Assembly: GCF_000455265.1 (NCBI RefSeq)
Contig: NZ_HG005139.1
Span: 2,697,480-2,761,479 of the forward strand
Reading direction: 5' to 3'
Length of the DNA stretch: 64,000 bases
Source of the DNA: Paenibacillus antibioticophila
GTDB taxonomy: Bacteria; Bacillota; Bacilli; Paenibacillales; Paenibacillaceae
Both the position numbers and the translations under genes were made by a program. The notes below the pieces were generated by a model. The model had not been told where the DNA came from, searched no databases, and was given only the letters and a program-made list of their open reading frames with translations. Positions 36,509 through 54,864 of the stretch are shown piece after piece. The first letter of the stretch is position 1; each line of letters begins with the position of its first letter.

Positions 36509-37404
36509 CAGTTCTCCTCCTTTTTAAAGAGGCCGCTGAACGCCAATTGCGTCAAATTAATGATCATCGTAACGGCAAGCAGAACAATGCCCACCGCTGC
36601 CGCATAGCCCAGATTGTTCTTCTCAATCCCCTGGCGGTACAAGTATCCGACGATCGTAAGACCAATATTTTTGGGAGAATTGTTTCCGTTCCACAACATC
36701 ATACTCTCAATAAACATCGCTAAACCGGCGTAAATACTGATCGTAAGCACATAAATGGTCGTTGGCTTAAGCAAGGGCATGGTGATTTTTGTGAACTGCT
36801 GAACCTTGGAGGCACCGTCGATGGCCGCCGCTTCATAATAATCATCCGGAATATTCTTCAGCCCGGATAAGAAATACAGCATATTAACTCCTGTCCAGCG
36901 CCAGGTAGCAAGCACCAGAAGCGCAATGTAACCCGTAACCTGGCCTTTTAGGAATTTAACCGGATCCAACCCGAAAAAGCCAAGAACACTGTTAATCAGC
37001 GAGGTATCCATTTCACCAAACATAAGCCGGAAAATCGTACCTGCGACGACAACAGAGGTTAAAGCGGGAAAGAAGAAGGAGGATTTGAAAAACTCTCTTC
37101 CCCACATGAATTTACTGTTAATCAACACCGCAAACAGCATTGGAAAAGGAATTAGAATGAGCAAGGTAAGCACCATATAAATAACGCTATTAGTTACCGC
37201 CTTGAAAAAAACTCCGTCCGTTATCAGCTTGGAATAATTGTCAAAACCAACCCATGCCGCTTCCTGGCCAAGCGTCAGCTTCTGGAAGCTCATGGAGAAT
37301 GAACTCGCCAACGGATATACCCAGAAAATCAAAAAGACAGCGATAAAAGGAAGTACGAACACATAAGGAGCAACCTTTTGCGAGTACAGGAACCTTTTAA
37401 TCAT
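36508..37404 (-). CDS. Carbohydrate ABC permease (MalF/AraP type)
   Basis: A 298-residue CUT1 permease; EAA loop DYYEAAAIDGASKVQQFTKI (about residue 190). I start it at 37404 (MIKRFLYSQKVAPYVF), where GGGAGGAG precedes the ATG by 8 bases; the open frame continues 17 codons upstream into an intercistronic hairpin. Second of the importer genes in the first arabinan operon. Confidence 0.92.
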   Translation of the reverse strand: MIKRFLYSQKVAPYVFVLPFIAVFLIFWVYPLASSFSMSFQKLTLGQEAAWVGFDNYSKLITDGVFFKAVTNSVIYMVLTLLILIPFPMLFAVLINSKFMWGREFFKSSFFFPALTSVVVAGTIFRLMFGEMDTSLINSVLGFFGLDPVKFLKGQVTGYIALLVLATWRWTGVNMLYFLSGLKNIPDDYYEAAAIDGASKVQQFTKITMPLLKPTTIYVLTISIYAGLAMFIESMMLWNGNNSPKNIGLTIVGYLYRQGIEKNNLGYAAAVGIVLLAVTMIINLTQLAFSGLFKKEEN

Positions 37405-37425
37405 CGTCCTCTCCTCCCTTTTAAA

Positions 37426-37453
37426 GAGAGCTGCTCCGGTTAGAGCAGCTCTC
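37426..37453 (-). other. Intercistronic hairpin, solute-binding gene to permease
   Basis: GAGAGCTGCTC and GAGCAGCTCTC form a perfect 11-bp stem with a 6-base loop, 21 bases after the solute-binding stop and followed by TTTAAAA. Likely lowers permease expression or protects the upstream mRNA. Confidence 0.7.
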
Positions 37454-37473
37454 AAGTCTTATTTCCATGAGGC

Positions 37474-38808
37474 CTACTTTAATTCCTGTTCGATTTGAGC
37501 CTGGGCTTCGTCAAGCGCTTGTTTTACGTCCTTGCCGTCTTCAAAGATCTCATTGAGTGTTACCGTACAAAGGACATTGTTAATGGTCGGAGATGATGAT
37601 GTGGATTTAATCAGCATGATTTCGTCTTTTATTTCATTCAAAACATCAAACGGGTTATTGGCAAAATACTTCACAAATTGGTTGTCTGGATTGTGTGTCA
37701 CATCATTCATATTCCACACGTCCATATTTACGGGGTCAAAGCCGAGCGTGTTCCAAATCTCGATATTCGCGTCTTCAGACAGCTTGGCGAAGGCGAGGAA
37801 ATCTTTTGCTAATTGAATGTCTTTTGCCGTCTTGGTCACAACAGTACCTGTACCGCCGCCGCCGACCGATCTAGGCATCCCTTCTTCCAACACCGGAATC
37901 GGGGCAATTGCGATTTTCCCAGATAAATCAGACATATAGTTCGTATATCTGGACATTTGCCAGAGCGGCATGAAGGCCGTAGCATAGTTCCCGGAATTGA
38001 ATTCACCGTAAGCCTCTTCCGTATCCGGCTGTCCGCCTGCAATCGTAGCAATCACGTTATTATCCTGCAGATCTTTAAGCATCATTAACGCCTTGACGGC
38101 CTCTTCAGAATTCACAATCGGATTACCTGAGTCGTCTGTCAGATCCGCGCCTTGCTGAGCAAGCAACTGCGTAACCTGCCAGGTTGCGCTGGTATCAGCC
38201 GTTCCCATGTACTTGCCGGTCTGTTCGTATACTTGCATCCCTGCTTGCTTGAAATCCTCCCAGGTTACGATGCTCTTGTAATCAACTCCGGCAGCCTCAA
38301 GGATTTCTGTATTGTAGAAGGCTACAGAAGCACCGACATGGGTTGGAATCCCGTAATTTTGGCCGTCTTTGCTGTACAAATCAATTCTTGATTGAACGAT
38401 AGTGTCTCTGTAAGGATCAATCACATCATTCAAAGGCTCCAATTGGGGTTCACCCTTCAAAAAATCGGGAAACTTGCCTAGTTCGATATCGGAGATATCA
38501 GGAGCCCCCACTCCCGTCTGAACCGCGATGGATAGCTTATTATGCATGTCATCATAAGGCATCACGGTAACATTAAGCTTGATTTGACGGTCCGGATACT
38601 CTGTATTCCATTTGCCCAGCATCTTCTCAAAATGCTGTCCATGCAATTCTACGAAAGTCCAATAGGACAATTCCGTTGCATCTTCCCCGGCACCGCTGTC
38701 CAGCACTGAAGTTTCACCGTTGCTGGAAGAAGATGAATTTCCGCCGCACGCCCCGAGTACCGTCGCCATTACGAGCACCAAACAGATCGTGAACCATTTT
38801 CTTTTCAT
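37474..38808 (-). CDS. Extracellular solute-binding lipoprotein (CUT1)
   Basis: A 444-residue lipoprotein with lipobox TVLGACGG (Cys about residue 21) and Ser-rich linker; MalE-like fold by length and pattern. I start at 38808 (MKRKWFTICL) with GGGAGG 8 bases upstream. Follows the GH51 gene by 30 bases and precedes its two permeases. Context with GH51 and GH43 points to arabino-oligosaccharides; the ligand is not readable from sequence. Confidence 0.9.
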   Translation of the reverse strand: MKRKWFTICLVLVMATVLGACGGNSSSSSNGETSVLDSGAGEDATELSYWTFVELHGQHFEKMLGKWNTEYPDRQIKLNVTVMPYDDMHNKLSIAVQTGVGAPDISDIELGKFPDFLKGEPQLEPLNDVIDPYRDTIVQSRIDLYSKDGQNYGIPTHVGASVAFYNTEILEAAGVDYKSIVTWEDFKQAGMQVYEQTGKYMGTADTSATWQVTQLLAQQGADLTDDSGNPIVNSEEAVKALMMLKDLQDNNVIATIAGGQPDTEEAYGEFNSGNYATAFMPLWQMSRYTNYMSDLSGKIAIAPIPVLEEGMPRSVGGGGTGTVVTKTAKDIQLAKDFLAFAKLSEDANIEIWNTLGFDPVNMDVWNMNDVTHNPDNQFVKYFANNPFDVLNEIKDEIMLIKSTSSSPTINNVLCTVTLNEIFEDGKDVKQALDEAQAQIEQELK

Positions 38809-38838
38809 ACCTTGACCTCCCACATGATCATTTTCGGC

Positions 38839-40431
<1,593 letters not shown>

Positions 40432-40683
40432 ATATAAAATAACATACAAGAACATAGCTGTAAATATATAAATATAAATCTTTTCATGTTTTTATAAACA
40501 AAATAAATCACATTATCAGAAAAACTCAATGTTTATTAGTATTTAACTAAGATAATTCATAAATAGACTCTATTTAATTTTATAATTATATGAAGTATAC
40601 AGGCGTTTATAACCATATTTTATATAAAATTTTATTTGAATCTATGCTTTTTGATTTAATACTTTTGTAAACGTTTGAGTTGG

Positions 40684-40699
40684 TTTATAATTATATAAA
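40684..40699 (+). promoter_or_regulatory. Palindrome with -10 box before regulator 1
   Basis: TTTATAATTATATAAA: inverted TTTATA/TATAAA arms around four bases, containing a TATAAT -10 hexamer. It ends 45 bases before the ATG, exactly as in the second copy. Possible autoregulatory operator. Confidence 0.5.
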
Positions 40700-40744
40700 A
40701 CAAACCTAAGTTTGATTACTTTTTCTGGAAGAGGGATATGACGC

Positions 40745-41662
40745 ATGATTTATATTAAAGATCTAATGAGCGGCATCGATATTTTTAAAGCGTTAAGCTC
40801 TGAAATCAGAATCCAAATCCTCGAACTGCTCGCAAAGAATCAAGCGCTGAACCTGAATGACCTTGCTAACAAGCTGAATCTTAGTAACGGGGCTATCACG
40901 ATGCATATTAAAAAGCTCGAAGAAAGCGGGCTAATTGAGATCAATACCACCGTCGGCAAGCATGGGATTCAAAAAATCTGCTACTTGAACAAAGATAAGT
41001 TAATGGTTGATCTTCGTAAAAAAGATGTAGAAAATCTCTATGAAGTAGAGATTCAAGTGGGACATTACAGTAATTACCAGGCATTACCAACATGCGGGCT
41101 GGCAACGAAAGACAGCATTATCGGCGACTTTGACGATCCGCGATACTTCGCTGATCCTCAGCGTATCGACTCCGAAATCATTTGGCTTGCCGAAGGCTTT
41201 CTGGAATACCGGATTCCGAATTATCTTAAGCCCAATCAGAGCTTTCGAGAAATCCAGTTCTCCATGGAGCTGGGTTCTGAAGCCCCGGGCTATTGCGATA
41301 ACTATCCTTCCGATATTCATTTCTACATTAATGATATCGAGATCGGCTTCTGGACCAGCCCCGGCGACTTCGGCGATATTCGCGGAACCTTTAATCCGGA
41401 ATGGTGGCCACCTCATCTGAATCAGTACGGGATGCTGAAGCTTATTCGAATTAATCACGAGGGCAGTTTTATTGATGGATGCAGAATATCGGATGTGACT
41501 CTGGATCAAATCCAGCTGGATTACAAGAGCGATTTAACCTTGCGCATCGCCGTAACCGACAGCTCCGTGAACAAGCGGGGATTAACCATCTTCGGCAAAA
41601 ATTTTGGCAACTATGGGCAGGATCTGCTGGCACGTGTTCTTTACGATTTAAATGAAGAATAA
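40745..41662 (+). CDS. Winged-helix regulator 1 with unrecognised C-terminal domain
   Basis: A 305-residue protein. Residues about 10-85 form an ArsR-type winged helix (IFKALSSEIRIQILELLAKN, then the recognition region LSNGAITMHIKKLEESGLI). The remaining 200 residues, beginning near VGHYSNYQA, are rich in beta strands and aromatic residues (PEWWPPHLNQYG, GDFGDIRGTF, FYINDIEIGFW) and resemble a jelly-roll, as in sugar-binding modules; I cannot name the family. RBS GAGGG is 8 bases upstream. Divergent from the GH51 operon, so a sugar-responsive regulator is likely. Nearly the same as 49728-50645. Confidence 0.85.
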   Translation: MIYIKDLMSGIDIFKALSSEIRIQILELLAKNQALNLNDLANKLNLSNGAITMHIKKLEESGLIEINTTVGKHGIQKICYLNKDKLMVDLRKKDVENLYEVEIQVGHYSNYQALPTCGLATKDSIIGDFDDPRYFADPQRIDSEIIWLAEGFLEYRIPNYLKPNQSFREIQFSMELGSEAPGYCDNYPSDIHFYINDIEIGFWTSPGDFGDIRGTFNPEWWPPHLNQYGMLKLIRINHEGSFIDGCRISDVTLDQIQLDYKSDLTLRIAVTDSSVNKRGLTIFGKNFGNYGQDLLARVLYDLNEE

Positions 41663-41666
41663 CAAA

Positions 41667-41709
41667 TAAAGCGTGAAATCCGGGTTTACTTGCTGGATCT
41701 CACGCTTTA
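41667..41709. terminator. Bidirectional terminator between regulator 1 and GH43
   Basis: TAAAGCGTGA and TCACGCTTTA pair, with an inner ATCC/GGAT extension. It lies between the convergent regulator and arabinanase genes and has T/A-rich edges on both sides. Confidence 0.75.
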
Positions 41710-41760
41710 CTTATATGCATAGATCGAGCAGGTTCCTAGAAACCATACTCGCACTAAATA

Positions 41761-44556
41761 TTATGGAGAGGCAAGCTGACTGCCAATGATTTCTCCGGAA
41801 CCAAAATTCCCTGCATGATCTGCAAGATCATGCTCAAACAGAAACTTAGCTGCCAATTCGGCTTTTCCCTCCTCTTCTTCAAAGGAAGCTTCCTGTGAAA
41901 GCCGCTTGACTAATGCATCGGTCAATGAAGTATTATAAATCCGCAATTCATCCATTTTGCCTTCGAAAGGACGATCCCACCAATTCACACCAAGGCTGAA
42001 TATCCCCGACTGATCTTTAAAAATATCCGGGAAGCCTTTACCCGTATATTTCTGCTCACCGTTAACGAACACCTTCACACTGCCCTCATTTACGATAAAG
42101 GCGAGATGATGCCAGTCTTTTGTTCGAATTCTGGAGCCGGTTGAGCCATCATACCAAGCTTCACCAGACCATAGCATTGTATGGTTATCCCAAGAATCCG
42201 GCACAAGGCTGATCCAGCTTGATTTGGATTGCGCCCCAAAGAAGGTGGTCGAGAACTGGTTATGCTCCTTCGGGTATACCCAAAGCGATACAGAGTATTC
42301 ATTTCCGGAGATCAGGCCATCCGGGAGGCGGATGCCGGATTCGCCGTCAAATACGGCTGCATTCCCGGTGACGCCTTTCGAAAAGGCTATATTACCATTA
42401 CCATTCTGCTCATCAATCAATGGCCCAGTAACTTTGCCGTGCTCATAGTTGTCTGTCGAATCGGACAAGTCACCTTCAAAGGCATAATGAGCAGCTAAGC
42501 CCTCATTCAAATCCAACGGAATGACGCGGACCTGAAATTTTTTCGCGGCGCTGAAGGCCCCCTTTGTGATCACTGCCGTAAGCTCTGCGATCAGCGGCTC
42601 TTCCCCTGGATCAGGGGGGCTGATAACACCTGCGTCCGAAATAACAGAAGGATCAGAGCTTACCCATTCGATCTTAGTTCCACGCACACCTTTCACAGGT
42701 AATTGAAGATGATCGGTCACTCGGCTTGTATCTCCAAGCGAAAGGGCCTGTTCAACGGCTATGACCGCCTGTTGATCGGTTATATCCGGCTGCTTGATTC
42801 CCCAAATGGTCTCTCCCTTGGCCGAAACAGCTGTAAAGGTTAATGTGTTTTGCTGCTGAAGCGGATCCCAGCCTTGGACAAACACCCCATGATAAGCTTC
42901 GCCGTTCACCACAATCTCAGCATCATATCCGCCTTCCAGACTCCAGCTGCCTTCCAAGTCACCCGTGATCTTCTTATCCTTTTCAAGCGTAATTGATACA
43001 GACTCCGTAACTGCCCCGGAATAGGACAGGCCGTGATTTACAAACTTATAATCTCCGGAAATGCTGGCCTCCTTAACTGCCGCTGCCGTCTCCCCGGAAT
43101 ATCTTCCAGGCGCCGTCACAAGCCAGCCATCCTTGTTCATGAACATCTGATGGACGCGAAGCTCATGCGCCTCTCCACGCTCAGGGAAGCGGGTATGGAA
43201 CAATAGAAAGTACTTTCCTGCAGCCTCATCGTAGAACACCGAGTTATGACCTGGAGATACATATCCATAACCGTCCTCCGGACCAGTTTCCCCAATCTCT
43301 TGCTTGAAAAGGAAGTTGCCCATCAGCTTGATGCCGATCAGATCATTGGCTGTATTCTGGTCTGTCAGGACGGCATTTTGCCCGGATGCATCGAGATAGG
43401 GGCCGGTCGGGCTGCTCGCGCGGAACTGCCTCATGTTATAGCCGCCGTCCGCTCCAAGCCAGCCATAGGTCACATTTAGATAATAGTAGTCCGTAGACGG
43501 ATCATAGAAAATATAAGGACCCTCGCCCGATTTGGTAAAACCGCCGGCGATTTTCACTCCGAAATACCGATCGATCAGCCTGCCGTCTTCGGTAACTCCA
43601 TCCTGTCCAGGATACTTCGGCAAGCCTGTTTCCGGATCAAGCTCAAGCAGGAAAATCCCGCCGGACCACGAGCCATAGGTCATCCACAACTTTCCTTCTT
43701 TATCAAAAAATAAGGTGGCATCGATTGCGTTCGGGTATATCGTATTGTTGTATTCTCCTGTACTTTTGAACCATTCCAGATTTTCTCCGTTCAGCAGTCC
43801 AGCTTCGATAAGCTCAGACAGATGGGTCTGAGTCCACTTCTTATTGACCGTACTATTGTCATCCCTTGCATCATGAAGTGTGAAGCCGGAAAAGACAACC
43901 GTATCTCCATACAAGTACGGGCCTTCGATATTTTGGGACACAGCAAACCCGATAGCTGACCGGATATAAGTGGAAGAGGCGCTGTAATACTGCATAAAGG
44001 CTCCGGTTGTTCCATCAGGATTCTTGTAATATTTATTCCAAATTACATCCGGCGCCCATACTGCATATCCTCCCTTGCTATCGGCATCATCTTCGCCTGC
44101 CCACTTGAATGAATCCGCCAAATTTTCTGACAGGTCCCCGTAAATCACGTTTCCGGGTGTCGTATATCCATTCGTGAATTTGGTCCAATTTTGTAAATCC
44201 GCAGATTTGGCAGCATCAATATGGGATCCAAAAACATAATAAGTCGAAGCATCCTTAATCACAGAAGGATCATGGACTGAGACATTAGTTTGATATGGAC
44301 GAAGCGTTCCATCCCCGTATCCTTGCATATATCCTGCGGCGACAGCCTTTCTGAGCTCTGACAATGGGGACTCATTCACATCCTGATCCCGGAAGTTCCA
44401 TTCACCTTCATTGATATATTGAAAGACTTGATTAATCCAGGCGGCAAATTCTACTCTCGTAATCCCTGAAGCCGTGTTTTCCTGAGCATAGCCTGTGGCC
44501 GGAATCAGCAGGGCAACTAATAACAGCAGCGTCAATCCTCTCTTTAACGATTTCAT
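41761..44556 (-). CDS. Secreted endo-arabinanase-like GH43 with N-terminal SLH and LamG domains
   Basis: A 931-residue secreted protein. Signal peptide (residues 1-24), one SLH-like repeat (about 32-90; SGITRVEFAAWINQVF and AAGYMQGYGDGTLRP), GH43 propeller (about 95-440), C-terminal beta domain (about 500-610), an atrophied bacterial Ig-like domain (about 615-705) and a LamG/concanavalin-like domain (about 708-895). GH43 residues: base Asp in NVSVHDPSVIK, Asp in NAIDATLFFD, Glu in SGEGPYIFY. A second LamG copy seems to begin at LAAKFLFEHDL but stops after 31 residues. Start chosen at 44556 with GGGGAGGAG upstream. Probably cuts arabinan outside the cell. Confidence 0.88.
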   Translation of the reverse strand: MKSLKRGLTLLLLVALLIPATGYAQENTASGITRVEFAAWINQVFQYINEGEWNFRDQDVNESPLSELRKAVAAGYMQGYGDGTLRPYQTNVSVHDPSVIKDASTYYVFGSHIDAAKSADLQNWTKFTNGYTTPGNVIYGDLSENLADSFKWAGEDDADSKGGYAVWAPDVIWNKYYKNPDGTTGAFMQYYSASSTYIRSAIGFAVSQNIEGPYLYGDTVVFSGFTLHDARDDNSTVNKKWTQTHLSELIEAGLLNGENLEWFKSTGEYNNTIYPNAIDATLFFDKEGKLWMTYGSWSGGIFLLELDPETGLPKYPGQDGVTEDGRLIDRYFGVKIAGGFTKSGEGPYIFYDPSTDYYYLNVTYGWLGADGGYNMRQFRASSPTGPYLDASGQNAVLTDQNTANDLIGIKLMGNFLFKQEIGETGPEDGYGYVSPGHNSVFYDEAAGKYFLLFHTRFPERGEAHELRVHQMFMNKDGWLVTAPGRYSGETAAAVKEASISGDYKFVNHGLSYSGAVTESVSITLEKDKKITGDLEGSWSLEGGYDAEIVVNGEAYHGVFVQGWDPLQQQNTLTFTAVSAKGETIWGIKQPDITDQQAVIAVEQALSLGDTSRVTDHLQLPVKGVRGTKIEWVSSDPSVISDAGVISPPDPGEEPLIAELTAVITKGAFSAAKKFQVRVIPLDLNEGLAAHYAFEGDLSDSTDNYEHGKVTGPLIDEQNGNGNIAFSKGVTGNAAVFDGESGIRLPDGLISGNEYSVSLWVYPKEHNQFSTTFFGAQSKSSWISLVPDSWDNHTMLWSGEAWYDGSTGSRIRTKDWHHLAFIVNEGSVKVFVNGEQKYTGKGFPDIFKDQSGIFSLGVNWWDRPFEGKMDELRIYNTSLTDALVKRLSQEASFEEEEGKAELAAKFLFEHDLADHAGNFGSGEIIGSQLASP

Positions 44557-44570
44557 GGAATTCTCCTCCC

Positions 44571-46058
44571 CTAGTTCAGACACAGCGTGACTGCCGACAT
44601 CGCCGGAAGCCGTAGTTTCAATCCTGCCTTATCCGCAACTACTTGTTCAAAGGGGGCCGGGGCAACGGTATTAGGTTGCTCGAAGGTGTTATGATCGTTC
44701 ATATGCTTGGCAGTTAAAATCCTCCCAACAGGCTGCAATTCTACAGCATCCAATCCGCGCACCTCTACATAAATCTCTGCTTCCTGACCAAGGTCAATAT
44801 TGACCAGGCTAAGATGAATTCTTCCCTCATGATCCTTGGAAGCCGATACCGTCACTTGCGGCAGTTCCTGACCTTGATGCTCGCAGATGCCTAGGGTTGA
44901 TTCGACCGATAACAGTTCAGCCTCCTGATGGACCTTGAACATATCAAAGATATGATACGTCGGCGTCAGAATCATTTTATCCCCTTCCGTTAAAATCATG
45001 GCTTGCAGCACATTAACGGTCTGGGCAATATTCGTCATATGCACCCGATCCGCATGCTTGTGGAAAATATTGAAATGCAGCGCAGCAACGAGAGCGTCCC
45101 GAATCGAATTTTGCTGATAAAGGAAGCCCGGATTTGTTCCCGGTTCTACATCGAACCAAGTCCCCCACTCATCAATGATCAGACCAACACGTTTATCGGG
45201 GTCATATTTATCCATAATTGCTCCATGCCTTGAAATGAGCTCATCCATATGCAGCGCTCTCTTCATCGTGACGAACCATTCATCTGTGTCGAAGTCCAGC
45301 GCCGATCCCTTACCCAGCCAAAAGTCACCAGGTATAGTGTAATAATGCAGGCTTAAACCATCCATCAATCCGCCCGCATGCTTCATCAGCACCTCCGTCC
45401 AGTTATAGTCATCTACGTTGGCTCCGCCGGCAATTTTAAAAATCCGGTTGTTTCCATAATTACGCACATAGGTCTGATATCTCCGATACAGATCAGCATA
45501 GTATTCAGGACGCATATGGCCGCCGCAGCCCCAATTCTCATTGCCAACGCCAAAATACTTTAGTCTCCACGGCTTTTCTCTCCCGTTCTCTTCACGCCAG
45601 TTAGCCATAGGCGATTCACCGTCAAAGGTCATATATTCAACCCATTCGGACATCTCCTGGACCGTACCGCTGCCAACATTTCCGCAGATATAAGGTTCGC
45701 ACTCCAGCAACTCGCACAGCAGCATGAATTCATGGGTCCCAAAGTGATTATTTTCAATTACACCGCCCCAGTGGGTATTGACCATTCGCTTACGGCGCTC
45801 GTACGGTCCTATTCCGTCCTTCCAATGATATTCATCGGCGAAGCATCCCCCCGGCCAACGCAACACCGGAATACTGATCGCTCTTAATGCCTCCAGCACA
45901 TCCTTTCGAATCCCCTTTGTATTCGGGATGGGGGATTCTTCACCTACCCAGATGCCCTCATAGATACATCTCCCGAGATGTTCCGCAAAGTGACCGTAAA
46001 TATGCTTATTAATTCGAGCTTGGGAAATGTCTGCATTGATAAGGATACGATTGCTCAT
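44571..46058 (-). CDS. abfA: Alpha-L-arabinofuranosidase, GH51 (AbfA type)
   Basis: A 495-residue intracellular GH51 enzyme close in layout to Bacillus AbfA. The acid/base Glu lies in [12 protein letters not shown] (about residue 173), and the nucleophile Glu is in [11 protein letters not shown] (about 292). The N-terminal [19 protein letters not shown] and [19 protein letters not shown] are textbook family stretches. RBS GGAGGG is 7 bases upstream. It follows the permeases and precedes the secreted arabinanase by 14 bases, forming the second arabinan operon. Confidence 0.95.
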
Positions 46059-46094
46059 CTATTGTCCCTCCGGCTTATTTAGTAGTCCCGCTGA

Positions 46095-46937
46095 TCACCC
46101 TTTAATGCCTGAATTCAGGTTAATCGATTGAATGAAGTATTTCTGCGCGAATGCAAACAGCAACAAGGTCGGAATAATAGCTATGATGGCTGAGCCCATT
46201 AGCTGGCCAATCATGCGGTAGTTGCCGTAAATATCCTGAAGCAACAACAGCCCGGCGGTAATCGGCATTTTATCAACATCGGTATAAACAATGACCGGCC
46301 ATAAAAAGTCATTCCATGAGCCGACAAAGGAGAACAGTCCGCACACAATCAAAACGGGTTTAATCAAAGGAAGAATAATTGAGGCATATATTCTGAAATC
46401 TCCCGCCCCGTCCACTCTGGCGGATTCATCCAGCTCATGCGGAATTCCCTTCAGGAACTGACGAACCAGGAAGATATTCCCCATCCCCGCCAAGCCTGGA
46501 ATAATCATCGCCAAGGAAGTATTCACCCAACCGAAAATATCAATAATTTTATAGGAAGGAATGATGTTCACTACACCCGGAAAGAACGAGATCCCCAGCA
46601 AAGTGAAAAATAAAGTATCTCTGCCCTTGAATTTCATTCGGGCATAACCGTAGCCGGTCAACGAAATTACGACAATAACCAAAAAGGTATGCAGAGATGC
46701 TATGAACACCGAGTTGAATAACCATCGCATGATCGGCGCAGTCGAGGTATTGCCCAGAATTGTCACATAGTTCTCCAGTCTCCATTCTGCCGGGAACAGG
46801 CGGAAGCCCGATTGCACAATCTCCGACTGTGTTCTTAAAGAGGTAGATATGCCGAAGATGACAGGAATGATCCACGTGATGCATAGAGCCCAAAGAAATA
46901 AATTCGCCAGATACTTGGATATGTTCATTTTACTCAT
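46095..46937 (-). CDS. Carbohydrate ABC permease (AraQ type)
   Basis: A 280-residue CUT1 permease with six membrane segments. EAA loop ELDESARVDGAGDFRIYASI (about residue 160). AAGGTG precedes the ATG. Partner of the gene at 46991-47869; last importer gene before abfA. Confidence 0.92.
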   Translation of the reverse strand: MSKMNISKYLANLFLWALCITWIIPVIFGISTSLRTQSEIVQSGFRLFPAEWRLENYVTILGNTSTAPIMRWLFNSVFIASLHTFLVIVVISLTGYGYARMKFKGRDTLFFTLLGISFFPGVVNIIPSYKIIDIFGWVNTSLAMIIPGLAGMGNIFLVRQFLKGIPHELDESARVDGAGDFRIYASIILPLIKPVLIVCGLFSFVGSWNDFLWPVIVYTDVDKMPITAGLLLLQDIYGNYRMIGQLMGSAIIAIIPTLLLFAFAQKYFIQSINLNSGIKG

Positions 46938-46990
46938 TTGAAGAACACCTTACCTCTCGCTTCCTTAGATTCGACTCCCTGACAGACAGC

Positions 46991-47869
46991 TTACTCATTG
47001 GCATTCCGGTTCATAACATAGTATTGCAATGCCGAAATCACCAGGATGACCATCCCCAGCAGTACAGCCATCGCTGATGCCATTCCTGCAATGGATTCAC
47101 CATGCCCGAAAGCCAACTGTCGAATGTACATCATCAATACATGTGTCGTCTGTCTAGGACCACCGTCGGTCATCATCAAAGGCTGACCGAATACGTTAAA
47201 CGCCCCCGCAGTCGTCATAACGAAGGTGTAGATCAACGGAAACCGAATCGAAGGCAGAGTAATGCTGAAAAATTTACGATTCGCACCTGCTCCATCCATT
47301 TCAGCAGCCTCATACAAATCCTTTGAGACGCCTGCGATGGAAGCACGGTAAATAATCATGTTTCCGCCAACGCCGCCCCATACCGTAATAACGAATATGA
47401 TAATCCACGCGTAAGGCTGGGTAGCAGGCCAAGCAACTTGCGAGTTGAATATATTCCCTGCTATGCCGAGCTGCTTGTTAAATAGCAGTAACCAAATCAG
47501 CGCCGCCGCCGAAATAGAGATCAGACCCGGAATATAAATAATGGCTTGAATAACGCCCTTCAGCTTCACCTTCCGATGCTCTAATGAAACTGCAACGAGG
47601 AGCGGAATTACAATCAAGAGCGGAACGCTTATAGCTACGAAAATAAATGTGTTCGTAAGACCATTAAAAAATTGGGTATGAAAGGTAGATGTTGTGTCAA
47701 GCAGAATCGTCTTATAGTTGGCGACACCAACCCATTGCGGGTCGTTCATGAGATTCCACTTGGTGAAGGAAGCATAAATCCCGTAAATGGTTGGAATAAG
47801 AATAAAGATTAAAAACAAGACCAGATGAGGGCCAACGAAGAAAACCGGTGCGAATGATTTCTTTCTCAT
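46991..47869 (-). CDS. Carbohydrate ABC permease (AraP type)
   Basis: A 292-residue CUT1 permease; EAA loop DLYEAAEMDGAGANRKFFSI (about residue 190). GGAGAT lies 11 bases before the ATG, rather far, suggesting weaker translation. It follows an intercistronic hairpin after the solute-binding gene. Confidence 0.92.
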   Translation of the reverse strand: MRKKSFAPVFFVGPHLVLFLIFILIPTIYGIYASFTKWNLMNDPQWVGVANYKTILLDTTSTFHTQFFNGLTNTFIFVAISVPLLIVIPLLVAVSLEHRKVKLKGVIQAIIYIPGLISISAAALIWLLLFNKQLGIAGNIFNSQVAWPATQPYAWIIIFVITVWGGVGGNMIIYRASIAGVSKDLYEAAEMDGAGANRKFFSITLPSIRFPLIYTFVMTTAGAFNVFGQPLMMTDGGPRQTTHVLMMYIRQLAFGHGESIAGMASAMAVLLGMVILVISALQYYVMNRNANE

Positions 47870-47894
47870 AGCCTATGCATATCTCCTTTTGACG

Positions 47895-47933
47895 AAAGGA
47901 TGTGCCAACCGTCCTTGTCGGCACATCCTTTCA
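47895..47933 (-). other. Intercistronic hairpin, solute-binding gene to permease
   Basis: GAAAGGATGTGCC and GGCACATCCTTTC form a perfect 13-bp stem with a 13-base loop, 17 bases after the solute-binding stop. No U-run beyond the stem's own T residues. Confidence 0.75.
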
Positions 47934-47950
47934 GCTTTCTGTTCCCGACT

Positions 47951-49195
47951 TTAATTTGCTTCCGCCTTGCTGCTTTCGGCAATCTTATCCTCAACGAACT
48001 TCTGCATGGTTTGCAGCGTTTCATCCAGATCCACATTGCCGCGTACAATATCTGCACAGTAAGTATCTACCGCTTCAGCTACATAAGGATAATATTCATA
48101 GGTATAGATATATAGGGATTCGATCTCCTTCTCGTTAGAGGTGAAGAAGGATTGCATGTATTGTGAGTAGTCCGGGCTTTCAATCACTTCTTTACTTGCA
48201 ACAATTTGTCCAGCCTTCGCCCATTCAATTGAATTTTGACGAATAAATTCCAGGAAAGCACCGATACCTGCTTCCTTCTCATCAGATCGTTTATCATTCT
48301 TGAGCATAGCGAACAAATGGGAAGAGGCCCGGTTCGTAAATTTATCCGCAGTTGCAGAGTAAATATTGGTCACCCCGAAATTGAGTCCCTCTACTGCAGC
48401 ATGAGCTGTAGAGCTCCACGTTCCGTCTGTAGAGAAGAGAACATTGCCGGATTGGAACATCAGGTATCCATCTTCACCGAACGGAGTCATCAGACCCGCA
48501 TCGGCAATCTTCTTCACTTCCTCGAAGGCTTGCTTCATCACCGGCGTGTTTACCGCAGGCTGCCCATTTTCTTCAATAGCTCCTCCAAGATTCTGGATTT
48601 GCGCAAGAATGACCCATCCAAGGAGAGCATCATTTACTACATAATCTCCTTCGTCCAGCTTGCCTTGAAGAGAGAGCATCTCATCGATCGTCACAACATC
48701 ATCATCCAGGAAATATTCCACATCGTATTTCTTAAGCAAATCCTTGTTGTAATACATGGTGTTGCTATGAATATCAAGCGGAACTGTATACTGCGTTCCA
48801 TCAATGTTTCCAGTTGTCCAAGCTTGAGGCAAATAGTTTTCTTCTTTAATTTCAGGCTGGCCGGCGATCGCCGAATCAATCTGTTCGAGCACCCCTTGCT
48901 TTACAAAGCCGGGCACCCGGTCAGCGTGGATAATTGCCAGGTCAGGTACACCTTTGCCGGAGTTAAGCACCGTTGATATTTTTGTATACATATCCGCTGT
49001 GATCACATGTTTAACTTGAATTTCCGGGTTGGTCGCATTGTACTCCTTTACCAGTTGGTCCATATAAGCGCCGTCATCTCCGGTCAAGGGAGTCCAAAAT
49101 GTAATTGTCTTGCTGTCCGAACCGCCTCCGCATCCCGATAACACGATACTCAGAACAAAAATAGTAATCATCATGATTATTCCGTGCTTTTTCAA
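47951..49195 (-). CDS. Extracellular solute-binding lipoprotein (AraN-like)
   Basis: A 414-residue lipoprotein; lipobox IVLSGCGGG (Cys about residue 22). It starts with TTG, preceded by GGGGGCGAAGG. First gene of the second arabinan operon (SBP-permease-permease-GH51-GH43), the same content as the B. subtilis araNPQ-abfA arrangement. Arabino-oligosaccharides are the likely ligand from context and from an AraR-like palindrome upstream. Confidence 0.9.
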   Translation of the reverse strand: MKKHGIIMMITIFVLSIVLSGCGGGSDSKTITFWTPLTGDDGAYMDQLVKEYNATNPEIQVKHVITADMYTKISTVLNSGKGVPDLAIIHADRVPGFVKQGVLEQIDSAIAGQPEIKEENYLPQAWTTGNIDGTQYTVPLDIHSNTMYYNKDLLKKYDVEYFLDDDVVTIDEMLSLQGKLDEGDYVVNDALLGWVILAQIQNLGGAIEENGQPAVNTPVMKQAFEEVKKIADAGLMTPFGEDGYLMFQSGNVLFSTDGTWSSTAHAAVEGLNFGVTNIYSATADKFTNRASSHLFAMLKNDKRSDEKEAGIGAFLEFIRQNSIEWAKAGQIVASKEVIESPDYSQYMQSFFTSNEKEIESLYIYTYEYYPYVAEAVDTYCADIVRGNVDLDETLQTMQKFVEDKIAESSKAEAN

Positions 49196-49269
49196 AACCT
49201 TCGCCCCCTAAATTTTAATAAAGCTTGATAATGGCATGCAGATAACTCAGATTCTACTTTCTTTCTCAA

Positions 49270-49283
49270 CTTGTACGTACATC
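49270..49283. promoter_or_regulatory. AraR-like operator
   Basis: CTTGTACGTACATC contains the perfect palindrome TGTACGTACA, the core of the B. subtilis AraR operator ATTTGTACGTACAAAT. It lies 75 bases before the AraN-like start. No araR gene is in the window. Confidence 0.5.
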
Positions 49284-49411
49284 TTTAGATAAATTAATAA
49301 ATTTATAGCTTCAACACCTCCCGGTCCTGCAAATAGGACTCCCTTATACTGGTCAACCATAACGCCATCAATTATTTTATTAATATATGAAATAATTGAC
49401 GAATAATTAAA

Positions 49412-49426
49412 TGAATTCGCTTACAG
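49412..49426 (-). promoter_or_regulatory. cre-like CcpA site before the AraN-like operon
   Basis: CTGTAAGCGAATTCA on the minus strand fits the cre consensus except its first base, and is the counterpart of the site at 40417. Confidence 0.65.
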
Positions 49427-49666
49427 GTATAAATTAACATAGGATTTCAGCGTTGTAAATACGTCATTTTAAATCTTTTCATTGTTTTATAAAAAAAATA
49501 TAATCATTAAGTTAATACAATGTAAAATCAAAGAGATGAGGCCTAAAAACGCCTGATTTATTTTATGTATTTGTAAACCATAGCGTCAAAATAGTTCATT
49601 TTTTTCTTTAATTCGTGCCTTTACCTCTCTTAACTTTGAAATCTCTTCCAATTAAATGTTCATTGA

Positions 49667-49682
49667 TTTATAATAGTATAAA
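49667..49682 (+). promoter_or_regulatory. Palindrome with -10 box before regulator 2
   Basis: TTTATAATAGTATAAA: same arms as at 40684, different centre, same 45-base distance to the ATG. The arms survive although surrounding bases have changed. Confidence 0.5.
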
Positions 49683-49727
49683 ATAAATATATTTTTAACT
49701 TCATTATTGGAAGAGGGTTAGAACCGG

Positions 49728-50645
49728 ATGATTTATATCAAGGATTTAATGAGCGGCATCGATATTTTTAAAGCGCTTAGTTCGGAGATCCGAATTCAAA
49801 TGCTGGAGCTGCTGGCCAAGAATCAGGCCTTGAATCTGAATGAGATTGCAAGCAAGCTGGGACTAAGCAACGGGGCCATTACAATGCACGTAAAAAAGCT
49901 CGAAGAAAGCGGGCTAATTGAGATCAATACCACCGTCGGCAAGCATGGCATTCAAAAAATATGTTATCTGAATAAAGACAAATTGATGGTTGATCTTCGC
50001 AGTAAAGATATGGAGAATTTGTACGAGGTTGAGATTCAGGTGGGTCATTACAGTAATTATCAAGCAGTACCTACATGCGGGCTCGCTACCAAAGACAGCA
50101 TTATCGGCGACTTTGACGATCCGCGATACTTCGCTGATCCTCAGCGTATCGACTCCGAAATCATTTGGCTTGCCGAAGGCTTTCTGGAATACCGGATTCC
50201 GAATTATCTTAAGCCCAATCAGAGCTTTCGAGAAATCCAGTTCTCCATGGAGCTGGGTTCTGAAGCCCCTGGTTACTGCGATAATTATCCTTCCGATATT
50301 TATTTTTATATTAATAATATAGAAATTGGATGTTGGACCAGTCCCGGCGACTTCGGTGATATTCGAGGAACCTTCAATCCGGAATGGTGGCCGCCTCACT
50401 TAAATCAATATGGCATGCTGAAATTAATCCGGATTAACCGGGATGGCAGTTATATCGATGGCTGCAGGATTTCAGACGTCACACTGGATCAAATCCAGCT
50501 GGATTACAAGAGCGACATTACGTTTCGCATCGCCGTTACTGACGGTCCTCTGAACAAGCGAGGATTAACTATCTTTGGCAGAAATTTTGGCAATTATGGA
50601 CAGGATCTGCTTGCGCGTGTGCTTTATGATGTGCGCCAGACTTAA
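49728..50645 (+). CDS. Winged-helix regulator 2 with unrecognised C-terminal domain
   Basis: A 305-residue paralogue of 40745-41662, with the same winged helix (LGLSNGAITMHVKKLEESG) and C-terminal beta-rich domain, differing at only a few dozen residues. Within it 50091-50269 is base-for-base identical with 41108-41286, while flanking parts differ at many third codon positions. RBS GGAAGAGGG. Divergent from the AraN-like operon, which it probably controls. Differences such as GCWTSPG for GFWTSPG in the putative sensor domain could reflect a different ligand. Confidence 0.85.
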   Translation: MIYIKDLMSGIDIFKALSSEIRIQMLELLAKNQALNLNEIASKLGLSNGAITMHVKKLEESGLIEINTTVGKHGIQKICYLNKDKLMVDLRSKDMENLYEVEIQVGHYSNYQAVPTCGLATKDSIIGDFDDPRYFADPQRIDSEIIWLAEGFLEYRIPNYLKPNQSFREIQFSMELGSEAPGYCDNYPSDIYFYINNIEIGCWTSPGDFGDIRGTFNPEWWPPHLNQYGMLKLIRINRDGSYIDGCRISDVTLDQIQLDYKSDITFRIAVTDGPLNKRGLTIFGRNFGNYGQDLLARVLYDVRQT

Positions 50646-50676
50646 CCGCATCATGCATTTTTTACCTGCTAGCACG

Positions 50677-50727
50677 AAGAAGCCCTTCGGCCACTTCTAT
50701 TAAGTGGTTATGAAGGACTTCTTTTTT
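50677..50727 (+). terminator. Terminator of regulator 2
   Basis: AAGAAGCCCTTC pairs with GAAGGACTTCTT (one mismatch) and an inner CCACTT/AAGTGG stem closes the loop; TTTTT follows. Confidence 0.9.
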
Positions 50728-50820
50728 ATCCTCGGAAAAGACCGAAGCCTTTACGAGGATACTCAGGCTGCTAACAACGATTATGGACGGAGCCGCGAAT
50801 GTAAAAGAGTCCTAGCAGCC
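50728..50820. repeat. Two inverted repeats downstream of regulator 2
   Basis: TATCCTCG and CGAGGATA (about 50728-50762), then AGGCTGCTA and TAGCAGCCT (about 50765-50819). They lie between convergent genes; the second may serve the GH3 gene as a weak terminator. Confidence 0.5.
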
Positions 50821-50861
50821 TCGTACTTCTTGTTCAAACCGGGCATCTACCCCGTCCGCTG

Positions 50862-53165
50862 TTAAGCCGTTACGCTTAATTCTACAGCTACCGTATCCCG
50901 GCTGTTCCCGCCGACCTGCACGCTTACCTTGCATGGCTCGGCCGCAAATTTCATTTCCCGGTTCCAGATACCGAGTTCCTCCCGGCCCATCGTAAACTCT
51001 ACAGCCTGCCGTTCTCCAGGCTTAAGCGTCACCTTGGCGAAGCCCTTCAATTCAGCAAAACGCCGGGTAATGCCGGATTCGCTGGCCTGAATATACAACT
51101 GTGCCGTTTCCGTTCCCGCCAGAGCGCCTGTATTCATGACCTCTACACGGACCTTTACCTCTTCCCCGCCTTCCAGCTCTCCCGCAGATATTGCGGTACG
51201 TGATAAGGACAGATTCTCATAGGCAAAATCCGTATAGCTTAAGCCGTAGCCGAACGGATATAATGCCGCCGATGGCATATCAACATATACGCGCGGCCGC
51301 GATGGTGTCTTCTGATTGTAATATACCGGCAATTGCGCCGAGGAACGCGGCAGCGAAACCGGCAGCTTGCCGCTTGGCAGCTCCTGTCCGAACAGGATTT
51401 CAGCCACGGCCTGCCCACCCTCTGTCCCTGGATACCAGGCACAGAGAATGGCTCCGCAGAGCTCCTCAATGTCGGTTAGCGCATGCGGTCGGCCCTGGAT
51501 GATAACGGCAACAACCGGCGTACCGGTAGCAGCTACCGCTGCAGCCAACTCACGCTGAACGCCGCCGAGCGATAGATCCGCCAGATCGACACCTTCGCCG
51601 CAATCCATCTCAGAGGGGCTGCCCTCGGAGAGGATCGCCGCACCGTTGCTGTCGAAGTCGCCGCCAAACTGGCGAGCACTGCTTCCGCCCAATACCAGTA
51701 CGGCAACGTCAGCTCCCTTCGCCGCCTCCACCGCTTCAGCGATGCCCGCTGTAGAGAGATCACGAATGCCGCAGCCCAGCGCATGCACGATTTCCGTGCC
51801 TTCCGGAGCCACGGAACGAATGCCTTGCAGCACCGTCGTTCCGCTTCCCTCCGGCTGTACGCTGGTGTAATCGCCTAATTGATTGTACAGACGATCCGCA
51901 TTCGGACCAATGACCGCAATACGGCGAGGCGAGGAAGAGAGCGGCAGCAGGTTATCTTTATTCTTAAGCAATACCAGCGACTCTCTGGCAATTTGCAGGT
52001 TAACCGCCTGATATTCCGGTCTTCTGGCAGCGGAGCCAGACTCGGAAACATAAGGCTGGTCGAACAAGCCCAGCCGGAACTTAAGGCGCAAGACACGCGC
52101 CACGGCCCGGTCCAGCTCCTCTTCCTTCACCAAGCCCTGCTTCACCGCCTCCTCCAGCGTTGAGAAGGCGGTGTCCCACAGGCTGAGATCAACACCGGAC
52201 TTTAAGGCCAAGGCCGCGGCAGACTCATAGCTGCCGGTCAAGGTCAGCAAACGGTCCACGGCCTGCCCATCCGCCATGACAATGCCATCAAATCCCCATT
52301 CCTCGCGCAGAGTGCCCGTCAAAAGCTCCGGGTTAGCATGACAAGGCACGCCGTCAATCTCGTTGTATGCCGCCATAAAGCCTGCCGCCCCAGCCAATGC
52401 CCCGGCCCGGGCCGCAGGCAGATGAATCTCCCGCAGCTCACGTTGTCCGATGGCAGCCGGTCCGGCATTCCGCCCTCCTTGGGCAGCTCCTTGAGCACAT
52501 AGATGCTTCAGTACCACTGCCAGCTTATCCGTCCCTGCCAATTGCTGCGGATCATCCCCCTGCATGCCGCGCACCGCCGCTTCGGCAAATTGCGAGGCGA
52601 GGTAAGGGTCCTCACTGAAGCATTCCTCCGACCGCCCCCCACGAGGCTCTTGCAGCATATCAAGCGCTGATACCAGGCCGATGTGAGCGCCGCGGCTGCG
52701 AATTTCCGCCGCCATCAGGCTATAAGCTTGCTTCATTAATTCCGGGTTCCAGGTAGCCCCTACACCCAAATTAACCGGAAGCAGGGTACCGTCCAGCGCC
52801 TGGTGGCCATGGGGACATTCCTCGGTCAGCAGCACGGGGATACCCAGACGCGTATGCTCGAGCACGTACCGCTGCACCTGATTGGCCGCCTTGGCGCTCT
52901 CCGTTGCGGTAATGCCGTTGCTATAATTGACTCCCGACCAGGGGTCGCTGCGGAACAGGCCGTACAAAGCCCCCATCCCGCCGCCACGGGCTACCTCATC
53001 CTTGAACGCATCGGTCAGCTCGAAGCGTTCCCCTTGACGTATGTAGGCATCCCAACCGTACATCCGCTGGTTAAGCTGCCCTACCTTCTCAGTGAGCGTC
53101 ATGCGCTCCAGCAAATCCGCGATTCGCTCCTCCAAAGGAACGGATGATTGTTTGTATTTCTCCAT
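50862..53165 (-). CDS. GH3 beta-glucosidase/beta-xylosidase
   Basis: A 767-residue GH3 enzyme of BglX-like layout: TIM-barrel domain (about 10-330; GRSEECFSEDPYL, nucleophile Asp in DGIVMADGQAVDRL), alpha/beta sandwich (about 380-630) and a fibronectin-III-like C-terminal domain (about 670-760). No signal peptide. The start at 53165 (MEKYKQSSVP) has GGGAGG 8 bases upstream; 28 earlier codons are open but overlap the response regulator. Last gene of an operon with a two-component system and importer; substrate beta-gluco- or xylo-oligosaccharides. Confidence 0.9.
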   Translation of the reverse strand: MEKYKQSSVPLEERIADLLERMTLTEKVGQLNQRMYGWDAYIRQGERFELTDAFKDEVARGGGMGALYGLFRSDPWSGVNYSNGITATESAKAANQVQRYVLEHTRLGIPVLLTEECPHGHQALDGTLLPVNLGVGATWNPELMKQAYSLMAAEIRSRGAHIGLVSALDMLQEPRGGRSEECFSEDPYLASQFAEAAVRGMQGDDPQQLAGTDKLAVVLKHLCAQGAAQGGRNAGPAAIGQRELREIHLPAARAGALAGAAGFMAAYNEIDGVPCHANPELLTGTLREEWGFDGIVMADGQAVDRLLTLTGSYESAAALALKSGVDLSLWDTAFSTLEEAVKQGLVKEEELDRAVARVLRLKFRLGLFDQPYVSESGSAARRPEYQAVNLQIARESLVLLKNKDNLLPLSSSPRRIAVIGPNADRLYNQLGDYTSVQPEGSGTTVLQGIRSVAPEGTEIVHALGCGIRDLSTAGIAEAVEAAKGADVAVLVLGGSSARQFGGDFDSNGAAILSEGSPSEMDCGEGVDLADLSLGGVQRELAAAVAATGTPVVAVIIQGRPHALTDIEELCGAILCAWYPGTEGGQAVAEILFGQELPSGKLPVSLPRSSAQLPVYYNQKTPSRPRVYVDMPSAALYPFGYGLSYTDFAYENLSLSRTAISAGELEGGEEVKVRVEVMNTGALAGTETAQLYIQASESGITRRFAELKGFAKVTLKPGERQAVEFTMGREELGIWNREMKFAAEPCKVSVQVGGNSRDTVAVELSVTA

Positions 53166-53205
53166 GTTCTGCTTCCTCCCGCCTGCCGATACTCCGCGCA
53201 GTTGT

Positions 53206-54864
53206 TTATTTGTCCTCTGCCGATGGATTGCGTTCTTGCGTCTCGACACTTTCCGCAGCCGCGTCCTTGCCGACGCGCAGGCCCCGATACTCCTTCGGCG
53301 TCATGCCTGTATGCAGCTTGAAGACCGAAACAAAATATTTGTATTCCTTATAGCCTACCTTATCCGCGATTTCGAACACCTTGTCATGGGTTGTGGCCAA
53401 CAGGTCTTTGGCCTGCTCGATTCTCATCTCGTTCATGTACTCCGTAAATCCTCTGCCCGTGCTTTGCTTGAAAATGTAACTAAAATAACTCGGCGTAATC
53501 TTCAGCCAAGCGGCAACCTCGGAAGCCTTCAGATCAGTACGATAATGATCGATAATAAACTTCTTGGCCTTCTCGACCACCCAATAGGACTTGTCCATCC
53601 CGGTCTTGTCGATCAACTGCTGCAAGGCCTGCATATCTTCCATGACCACAGCCTCCAGACCAGCGTAGGAATTGTAGATATTCGGGTCCGGCTGTCCGGG
53701 ATGGCCATAATCAAGGCCCGTCATGCCGCTTTGACGCAATCGTTGGCGCAGAAGGGCAAAGACCTCCTCATAAATCTTCCAGATTTCCGGCAGCAAGTAA
53801 CCCGAGTCACGGAAGAAACCGAACATCCCGGCAACCAGGGCCCGCACCTCCTGCTGATCCTGCTTGAACAACGCAGCAACCAGCTGCTGCACCGTGTCCG
53901 CAATATCCAATCCGGGAAGCTTACGCTCCCTCATGAGCTTATCATAACAGCCCGCAGTCAGCACCTGTCCTTGGCCCAGCACATGAAGCCCCAACAGCCG
54001 AATCGCCTCCGCACAGCACTCCGCAGTCTCTTCCAGATGGGCGTATATCCGGGATGCGCCTCCATAGATGCGCCCCTCCCCATCAGGAGATAACGCAGTC
54101 ACCGCCCGGTCCAGCAGCTCATCCCATTCGCCAAGCTCCAATTCTTCATCCGCAACCAGCAGGGTAATTAATAGATTCTCGTGGTCAAATACAGAAAACG
54201 CCCGAAGGCTTTGCCGCTCCAGATGCTGCCTCAGGCTCTCCAGCCAAGACCGCTGGACCTGCTCATAAGATTCGCCCTTTACGCTCGCAAAGCGCTGATG
54301 GAACTCGGCAAACTGCGTGGCCAGAATCCGAAATTGAACGCCGCGAAGCGATGCAGGAGGCTCCTGCCCATAAGCCAAACCGTGGCGAGCCGTGCCCGAA
54401 AGCCACAGCTGGATATCCTGCATCGCCCCCTCTTTGTCCCTCTGGCGGATGCGCTGTACAATTTTCCCGACAACGGCGGTCAATTCCTCGATATCAACCG
54501 GCTTAAGCAAATAATCGTTGACTCCCAAACGAATCGCTTGGCGCGCATAGCTAAAATCTTCATAACCGCTAATCATGACGACCTGTACATGAGAATGATG
54601 CGAACGAAGCTGCTCCGCAAGCTCCAGACCGTCCATTCCGTCCATGCGAATATCCGAAAGCACCAGATCCACGCTATGCTGCTCCACCAGCCGCAGCGCT
54701 TCCCTGCCTTCACTGGCCTCTCCAACCACTTCAACGCCTAGCTCGGCCCAATCAATAGTATAGCGCAAGCCTTCGCGAATCACCGTCTCATCATCAACGA
54801 TAAGCATTTTTATACGATTGTTCTCACCCACGAATGTCATGCTTGCTTCAAAATCAGGACTCAT
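53206..54864 (-). CDS. Response regulator, YesN type (REC + AraC)
   Basis: A 552-residue regulator. Receiver domain about residues 20-140 with phospho-acceptor Asp in LVLSDIRMDGMDGL and Lys in LLKPVDIEEL; C-terminal AraC domain with VAAWLKITPSYFSYIFKQ (about 445) and EIADKVGYKEYKYFVSVFKL (about 490), ending TGMTPKEYR. Start at 54864 with AGGAGG 8 bases upstream; 11 bases overlap the kinase. Pairs with 54854-56659. Proposed target is the direct-repeat site at 60058-60091. Confidence 0.93.
   Translation of the reverse strand: MSPDFEASMTFVGENNRIKMLIVDDETVIREGLRYTIDWAELGVEVVGEASEGREALRLVEQHSVDLVLSDIRMDGMDGLELAEQLRSHHSHVQVVMISGYEDFSYARQAIRLGVNDYLLKPVDIEELTAVVGKIVQRIRQRDKEGAMQDIQLWLSGTARHGLAYGQEPPASLRGVQFRILATQFAEFHQRFASVKGESYEQVQRSWLESLRQHLERQSLRAFSVFDHENLLITLLVADEELELGEWDELLDRAVTALSPDGEGRIYGGASRIYAHLEETAECCAEAIRLLGLHVLGQGQVLTAGCYDKLMRERKLPGLDIADTVQQLVAALFKQDQQEVRALVAGMFGFFRDSGYLLPEIWKIYEEVFALLRQRLRQSGMTGLDYGHPGQPDPNIYNSYAGLEAVVMEDMQALQQLIDKTGMDKSYWVVEKAKKFIIDHYRTDLKASEVAAWLKITPSYFSYIFKQSTGRGFTEYMNEMRIEQAKDLLATTHDKVFEIADKVGYKEYKYFVSVFKLHTGMTPKEYRGLRVGKDAAAESVETQERNPSAEDK

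Follow-up and report, generated by a model that had tools for sequence, protein, structure and literature searches.

Two regulator genes, A and B, stand on the same strand of the window (the whole stretch of 64,000 nucleotides analysed here) as direct repeats with a spacing of 8,983 bp, and they share an uninterrupted 179-bp block within sequences that otherwise differ at 138 of 739 positions, raising the question of whether one copy has overwritten part of the other and, if so, in which direction. The two ORFs (918 bp each) can be aligned without gaps, retain intact reading frames, and share 85.0% identity at the DNA level (780/918) and 92% at the protein level. Both are located on a single 3.05-Mb contig of the window's genome (5.58 Mb, 9 contigs, completeness 99.8%), which is of the Paenibacillus type. 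The features discussed below are listed in Table 1.

Table 1. Features of the A/B region, in window coordinates; the genes of operons A and B were grouped on the basis of gene order.
Feature	Position	Strand	Remarks
Predicted arabinosylfuranosidase ArfA	38839..40410	-	Divergent from A; heads operon A
Binding protein, operon A	37474-38823		After ArfA
Permeases, operon A	36508-37455, 35675-36508		After binding protein
GH43 gene, operon A	34672-35637		After permeases
24-bp element	40423..40446	+	CGCTTACAGATATAAAATAACATA; adjoins start of operon A
AT-rich palindrome-like element upstream of A	40684..40700	+	TTTATAATTATATAAAA; candidate operator overlapping a -10-like box
Regulator A, 305 aa	40745..41662	+	Recipient of the 179-bp tract
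Second identical block in A, 56 bp	40910..40965	+	Codons 56-74, end of winged helix
Conversion tract in A, largest extent 179 bp	41108..41286	+	Diagnostic sites 41119 to 41278
GH43 arabinanase-like gene, operon B	41761-44583		AbnB model 451.8 bits, below cut-off of 750
Arabinofuranosidase, operon B	44571-46058		After permeases
Permeases, operon B	46991-47869, 46095-46937		After binding protein
Solute-binding protein	47951..49195	-	Divergent from B; heads operon B
Matching 24-bp element	49418..49441	+	CGCTTACAGGTATAAATTAACATA; between B and operon B
Same AT-rich element upstream of B	49667..49683	+	TTTATAATAGTATAAAA
Regulator B, 305 aa, paralogue of A	49728..50645	+	Donor of the 179-bp tract
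Counterpart of 56-bp block in B	49893..49948	+	Probable recipient
Same 179 bp in B	50091..50269	+	Donor copy; exact identity

Regulator A consists of an ArsR-type winged helix (approximately residues 12-75) followed by a C-terminal part of about 200 aa, and the winged helices of A and B score above the Pfam cut-offs for HTH_5 and HTH_24. In the C-terminal part, no Pfam match was obtained at E-values up to 5, and a phmmer search of residues 90-305 against the PDB yielded none at E-values up to 1; an 11-row profile of this presumed sensor half hit a single PDB chain, a GH167 enzyme, at a non-significant E-value of 0.12. A reading of A and B as metal-sensing ArsR proteins was discarded, as their scores with the NCBIfam model HTH_metalloreg (48.3 and 45.9 bits) are below the cut-off of 55 and each protein of 305 aa includes a large extra part. 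The two genes are best explained as paralogous ArsR-type carbohydrate regulators, whose duplication predates the split from Paenibacillus brevis described below.

The 179-bp block is bounded directly by mismatches on either side, and its ends agree to the base with those given in the first-pass annotation, which also listed shorter identical blocks of about 55 bp and, near the 3' end, about 30 bp; these correspond to runs of 56 bp and 32 bp (41501-41532), and the only other identical run of at least 18 bp is one of 29 bp (40764-40792). At polymorphic sites, A and B agree without interruption over at most 45 of 252 sites (40 of 198 when silent sites are considered), a run that was reached in none of 20,000 shuffles. 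After removal of the 179-bp block, the next longest run, which corresponds to the 56-bp block, comprises 11 of 207 sites and was reached in 16 of 20,000 shuffles. The 29- and 32-bp runs may be no more than chance matches. A search for repeats of at least 30 bp (seed 14) in positions 36000-56000 returned a single family, i.e. the A/B pair itself.

The nearest relative found, as judged by these genes, is P. brevis MSJ-6 (G004/L008), which carries both copies at the same two places: its A lies between the ArfA operon and a GH43 gene, and its B between the binding-protein operon and GH3. In a survey of 40 genomes of the genus, including the window's own, 34 matched at the threshold used, and among these a second copy at about 92% identity was present only in the window's genome and P. 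brevis, the second matches of the others being 45-48% identical. As P. brevis is the only genome besides the window's in which both copies were found, its A is the one sequence that shows the native state of A. P. sanguinis has a single copy, an orthologue of B. Across the phylum, relatives were present in 24 of 398 sampled genomes (the window's own counted); 10 stretches of viral contigs fitted the search pattern, with no relatives among them. The scan of genome contigs took in the best 80 of 272 relatives, and gene order was examined at 21 loci in addition to the window. Trees of 96 rows were built from A, B, and 94 distinct relatives, all trimmed to 304 codons. Before trimming, a stop within 915 bases was present in four of the relatives' slices (L019, L031, L096, and L114), these genes being slightly shorter. 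The 15- and 14-row tests used chosen subsets of the 96 rows.

Within the tract, A and B match at all 179 positions and each matches P. brevis B at 167, whereas A matches P. brevis A at 143. Outside it, the copies pair by locus, with 689 matches of 739 between A and P. brevis A and 680 between B and P. brevis B, versus 601 between A and B. Differences between A and P. brevis A are concentrated in the tract (36/179 vs 50/739 outside; Fisher's test, p = 4.7e-7), those between A and B are absent from it (0/179 vs 138/739; p = 8e-15), and those between B and P. brevis B are evenly spread (12/179 vs 59/739; p = 0.64); in these tests B behaves normally and A is shifted, so that A alone is odd in the tract. 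Sites separating the two loci (A = P. brevis A, B = P. brevis B) number 44 before the tract, none within it, and 44 after it. At 28 tract sites P. brevis A is the sole divergent sequence, and at positions 41143, 41152, 41164, and 41248 the letter common to A and B is absent from both P. brevis B and the P. sanguinis orthologue.

The phylogenies agree with these counts. Outside the blocks, the 96-row tree groups A with P. brevis A (SH-aLRT 99) and B with P. brevis B and P. sanguinis (100); groupings of A with B (p-AU = 2.2e-5, 15 rows) and of A with P. brevis B (p-AU = 0.00027, 14 rows) were rejected. In the tract, A joins B, P. brevis B, and P. sanguinis (SH-aLRT 95). In a careful 15-row tree of the tract, the supports were 94/92 and 91/91, and P. 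brevis A occupied a long branch beside P. dokdonensis. When the tract was analysed alone with B omitted, forcing A together with P. brevis A lowered lnL by 7.4 and was not rejected (p-AU = 0.196), because 179 columns make a short alignment, in which P. brevis A is long-branched; the count-based tests are independent of the tract tree. The conversion between copies proposed in the first-pass annotation is thus borne out by its own suggested comparison with orthologues, which in P. brevis revealed grouping by genome in the block and by locus outside it.

These results confirm a non-reciprocal, directional conversion, in which A received the block from B after the window's genome had separated from P. 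brevis. Four hallmarks of interlocus gene conversion were observed, namely a sharp-edged tract beyond chance, tree conflict, non-reciprocity, and absence of constraint. A stretch of 179 bp diverging at the rate seen between the species should contain about 13 differences, and none separates A from B, which makes the conversion far more recent than the split. It probably proceeded by homologous recombination without crossover, copying at least 160 bp (41119 to 41278) and at most 179 bp from B to A; a crossover between the direct repeats would have removed the intervening operon. The recombination was presumably of the RecA type, either inside a single genome or with a close sibling's DNA.

Several other explanations of the identity have to be weighed. 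Constraint on the DNA itself, through an overlapping element or codon constraint, could in principle maintain the block in both copies, and it is true that the protein segment encoded there is highly conserved among family members and that opposite-strand ORFs overlap the block, as mechanical ORFs often do. In the comparison of A with P. brevis A, however, 36 of the 179 block positions differ (29 codons silently and 3 by amino acid), and the tract has an average codon diversity for the gene (0.512 over 95 rows, the mean of all 59-codon windows being 0.518). Conservation of the block among orthologues at the DNA level, an objection that had been raised in advance, was therefore not found, codons varying across species as they do elsewhere, and we regard such constraint as having a negligible probability. 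The block was seen in assembled sequence, and short-read assemblers err at identical stretches, so that an assembler might have copied it from one locus to the other. Against this, both copies have intact, diverged flanks within one 3.05-Mb contig and intact reading frames, and the native copies would have given an assembler no reason to merge them, since 36 of the 179 positions distinguish P. brevis A from B of the window; we consider an artefact of assembly very unlikely. Import of the A tract from the B allele of another strain, rather than from the same chromosome, is a minor but real possibility: in the sequence alone, a donor in the same cell looks the same as an identical B allele of a sibling, but the 179/179 identity with the resident B implies that the donor was the resident copy or that of a very close sibling.

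The first-pass annotation further suggested that conversion keeps the sensor halves alike while the DNA-binding halves drift. This part was not sustained, as fixed amino acid differences between A and B occur both in the winged helix (residues 25, 39, 40, 42, 45, and 55) and in the remainder of the sensor half (e.g. 192, 197, 202, 238, 242, 264, 274, 275, and 285). In favour of selection for such homogenization, the long tract lies wholly in the C-terminal half (approximately codons 122-181), but A and P. brevis A differ within it only at residues 149, 165, and 166, many A/B differences persist in the rest of the sensor half, the shorter block falls in the winged-helix region itself, and a comparable regulator pair in P. 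cookii and Paenibacillus sp. USDA918EY lacks a significant tract; selection of this kind seems very improbable. In the unconverted P. brevis pair, the amino acid differs at three block codons, which indicates that purifying selection already keeps the block alike. Conversion from B into A probably changed the protein very little, by about three residues, and its effect may have been near-neutral, the protein being almost unchanged.

The regulator pair just mentioned (L021 in Paenibacillus sp. USDA918EY and L022 in P. cookii; copies at 5233/5274 and 10001) appears to have arisen by an independent duplication, and each of the two ABC operons there has its own copy. Common ancestry of this pair with A/B is unsupported, as the tree separates the pairs; of five sites with fixed differences in both pairs, two fit each pairing and one fits neither. 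No significant conversion tract was detected in the pairs of either species.

The 56-bp block probably records a second conversion, in the direction from A to B, although the three sites on which it rests are weaker evidence than that for the long tract. At 40930, 40933, and 40945, B departs from P. brevis B and P. sanguinis and matches A and P. brevis A, a pattern found elsewhere at 3 of 677 sites; one site in the block, 40936, points the opposite way. Two further stretches are at odds both with a plain locus tree and with one simple event, namely 41359-41417, with five cross-patterned sites (A = P. brevis B, B = P. brevis A), and 41501-41569, with four sites at which the copies agree by genome. 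P. brevis A is identical to the window's B over 44 bp (41375-41418), and the longest run of this pair, one of four pairs tested, was reached in 442 of 20,000 shuffles. These stretches may reflect older small exchanges or repeated substitutions. The account as a whole, i.e. paralogous regulators, conversion from B into A after the split, and a probable second event from A into B, is in our judgement very likely correct.

The surroundings of both genes point to arabinan utilization. The neighbour of A scored 797.6 bits with the NCBIfam ArfA model (cut-off 625), and both A and B are divergent from arabinofuranosidase/arabinan operons. At 15 of 19 loci in other species, the next recognized gene on the divergent side is related to ArfA of the window or to the operon A binding protein, the exceptions being L010, L023, L032, and L063. 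The window's genome encodes five further paralogues (37-48% identity) in four regions, which contain arabinofuranosidase, alpha-galactosidase, GH43, and GH2 genes. Among the five, L003/L152 has an arabinofuranosidase gene on its divergent side, the paralogues in L153 and L154 are convergent with an alpha-galactosidase and a GH43 gene, respectively, and two lie near a GH2 gene. A paralogue in L006 (own genome, contig C5), which contains one in-frame TGA and adjoins a GH2-type gene, is possibly a decayed copy.

Two described systems offer comparisons. ArbA (also ArbR), an ArsR-family protein predicted to control abfA in Caldicellulosiruptor, is described as a candidate repressor, with its gene divergent from that for an alpha-L-arabinofuranosidase (PMC8579813). 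A and B are likewise of the ArsR type and, set beside this description, look like ArbA; unlike the arrangement described there, the window has a pair of such genes, and an ABC transporter operon accompanies each of them. Proteins 49-50% identical to the window's regulators are encoded in a Bacillota genus with genomes of 2.4-2.9 Mb (seven genomes matched), and at the one locus examined (L137) the regulator gene is divergent from an alpha-L-arabinofuranosidase gene; we infer that this genus is Caldicellulosiruptor. In Geobacillus sp. 56T3, an ArsR-family gene heads the arabinose/arabinan cluster (PMC4428132, Table 7), and, compared by this listing, copy B shows the same order of regulator, binding protein, two permeases, and arabinan enzymes, except that in operon B the arabinofuranosidase gene precedes the GH43 gene.

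Candidate operators were found at both genes. A symmetric motif search of 84 upstream stretches, a set in which P. brevis A is present twice, gave tTTTATAatatTATAAAa, with a score of >8 in 78 of 84; the motif is AT-rich and this score comes without a shuffled control. With up to two mismatches, the 17-bp pattern has five matches in the window against 0.5 expected, all beside A or B, and two of the five are exact, one at each gene. A longer pattern searched in the whole genome with up to three mismatches gave five matches versus two for a backwards control, and those with up to two mismatches are located at A and B. As the first motif includes a -10-like box, its conservation may partly be that of a promoter. 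The 24-bp element, which was written from both upstream regions, has no match elsewhere in the window (0 expected); it is conserved between two divergent promoter regions that are otherwise dissimilar. We predict that both regulators read the same sites, and A and B would regulate their neighbouring arabinan operons via shared AT-rich operators. A more far-reaching reading is speculative and rather unlikely: the regulators would read the same operators and swap segments both ways, conversion would thereby link the two arabinan regulons, and recombination would keep this cross-talking pair partly in register. The pair would be built on a carbohydrate-sensing domain that is as yet uncatalogued and is also present in a predicted lipoprotein.

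This kind of event is known and its mechanism ordinary, but the example is unusually clean. Concerted evolution in bacterial paralogues has been described as long-lasting in 26 genes (PMC6053082), in a paper whose main text contains no occurrence of the term 'transcriptional regulator'. As in the cases described there, one paralogue has been non-reciprocally homogenized by another and the affected part groups by genome; unlike them, A and B show a single recent short tract, with a probable second, and otherwise diverge by locus. Among the matches listed in our literature search, there was no report of the A/B regulator pair. The locus offers a clean, dated, and oriented case in which a short tract was converted between bacterial regulator genes of only about 80% identity, with a direction that can be read via an outgroup, and it warns that an overwritten segment can make gene trees of such regulators mislead.

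A and B belong to a lightly studied family of ArsR-type carbohydrate control, with a sensor half that has no Pfam match here. A stretch about 33% identical to this C-terminal half is present in a 710-aa protein of another Bacillota genome (G253; L136:1110-3242, minus strand), which has a lipoprotein-like start as judged by eye and no Pfam match at E-values up to 5, suggesting that the sensor-like domain is also found outside transcription factors.
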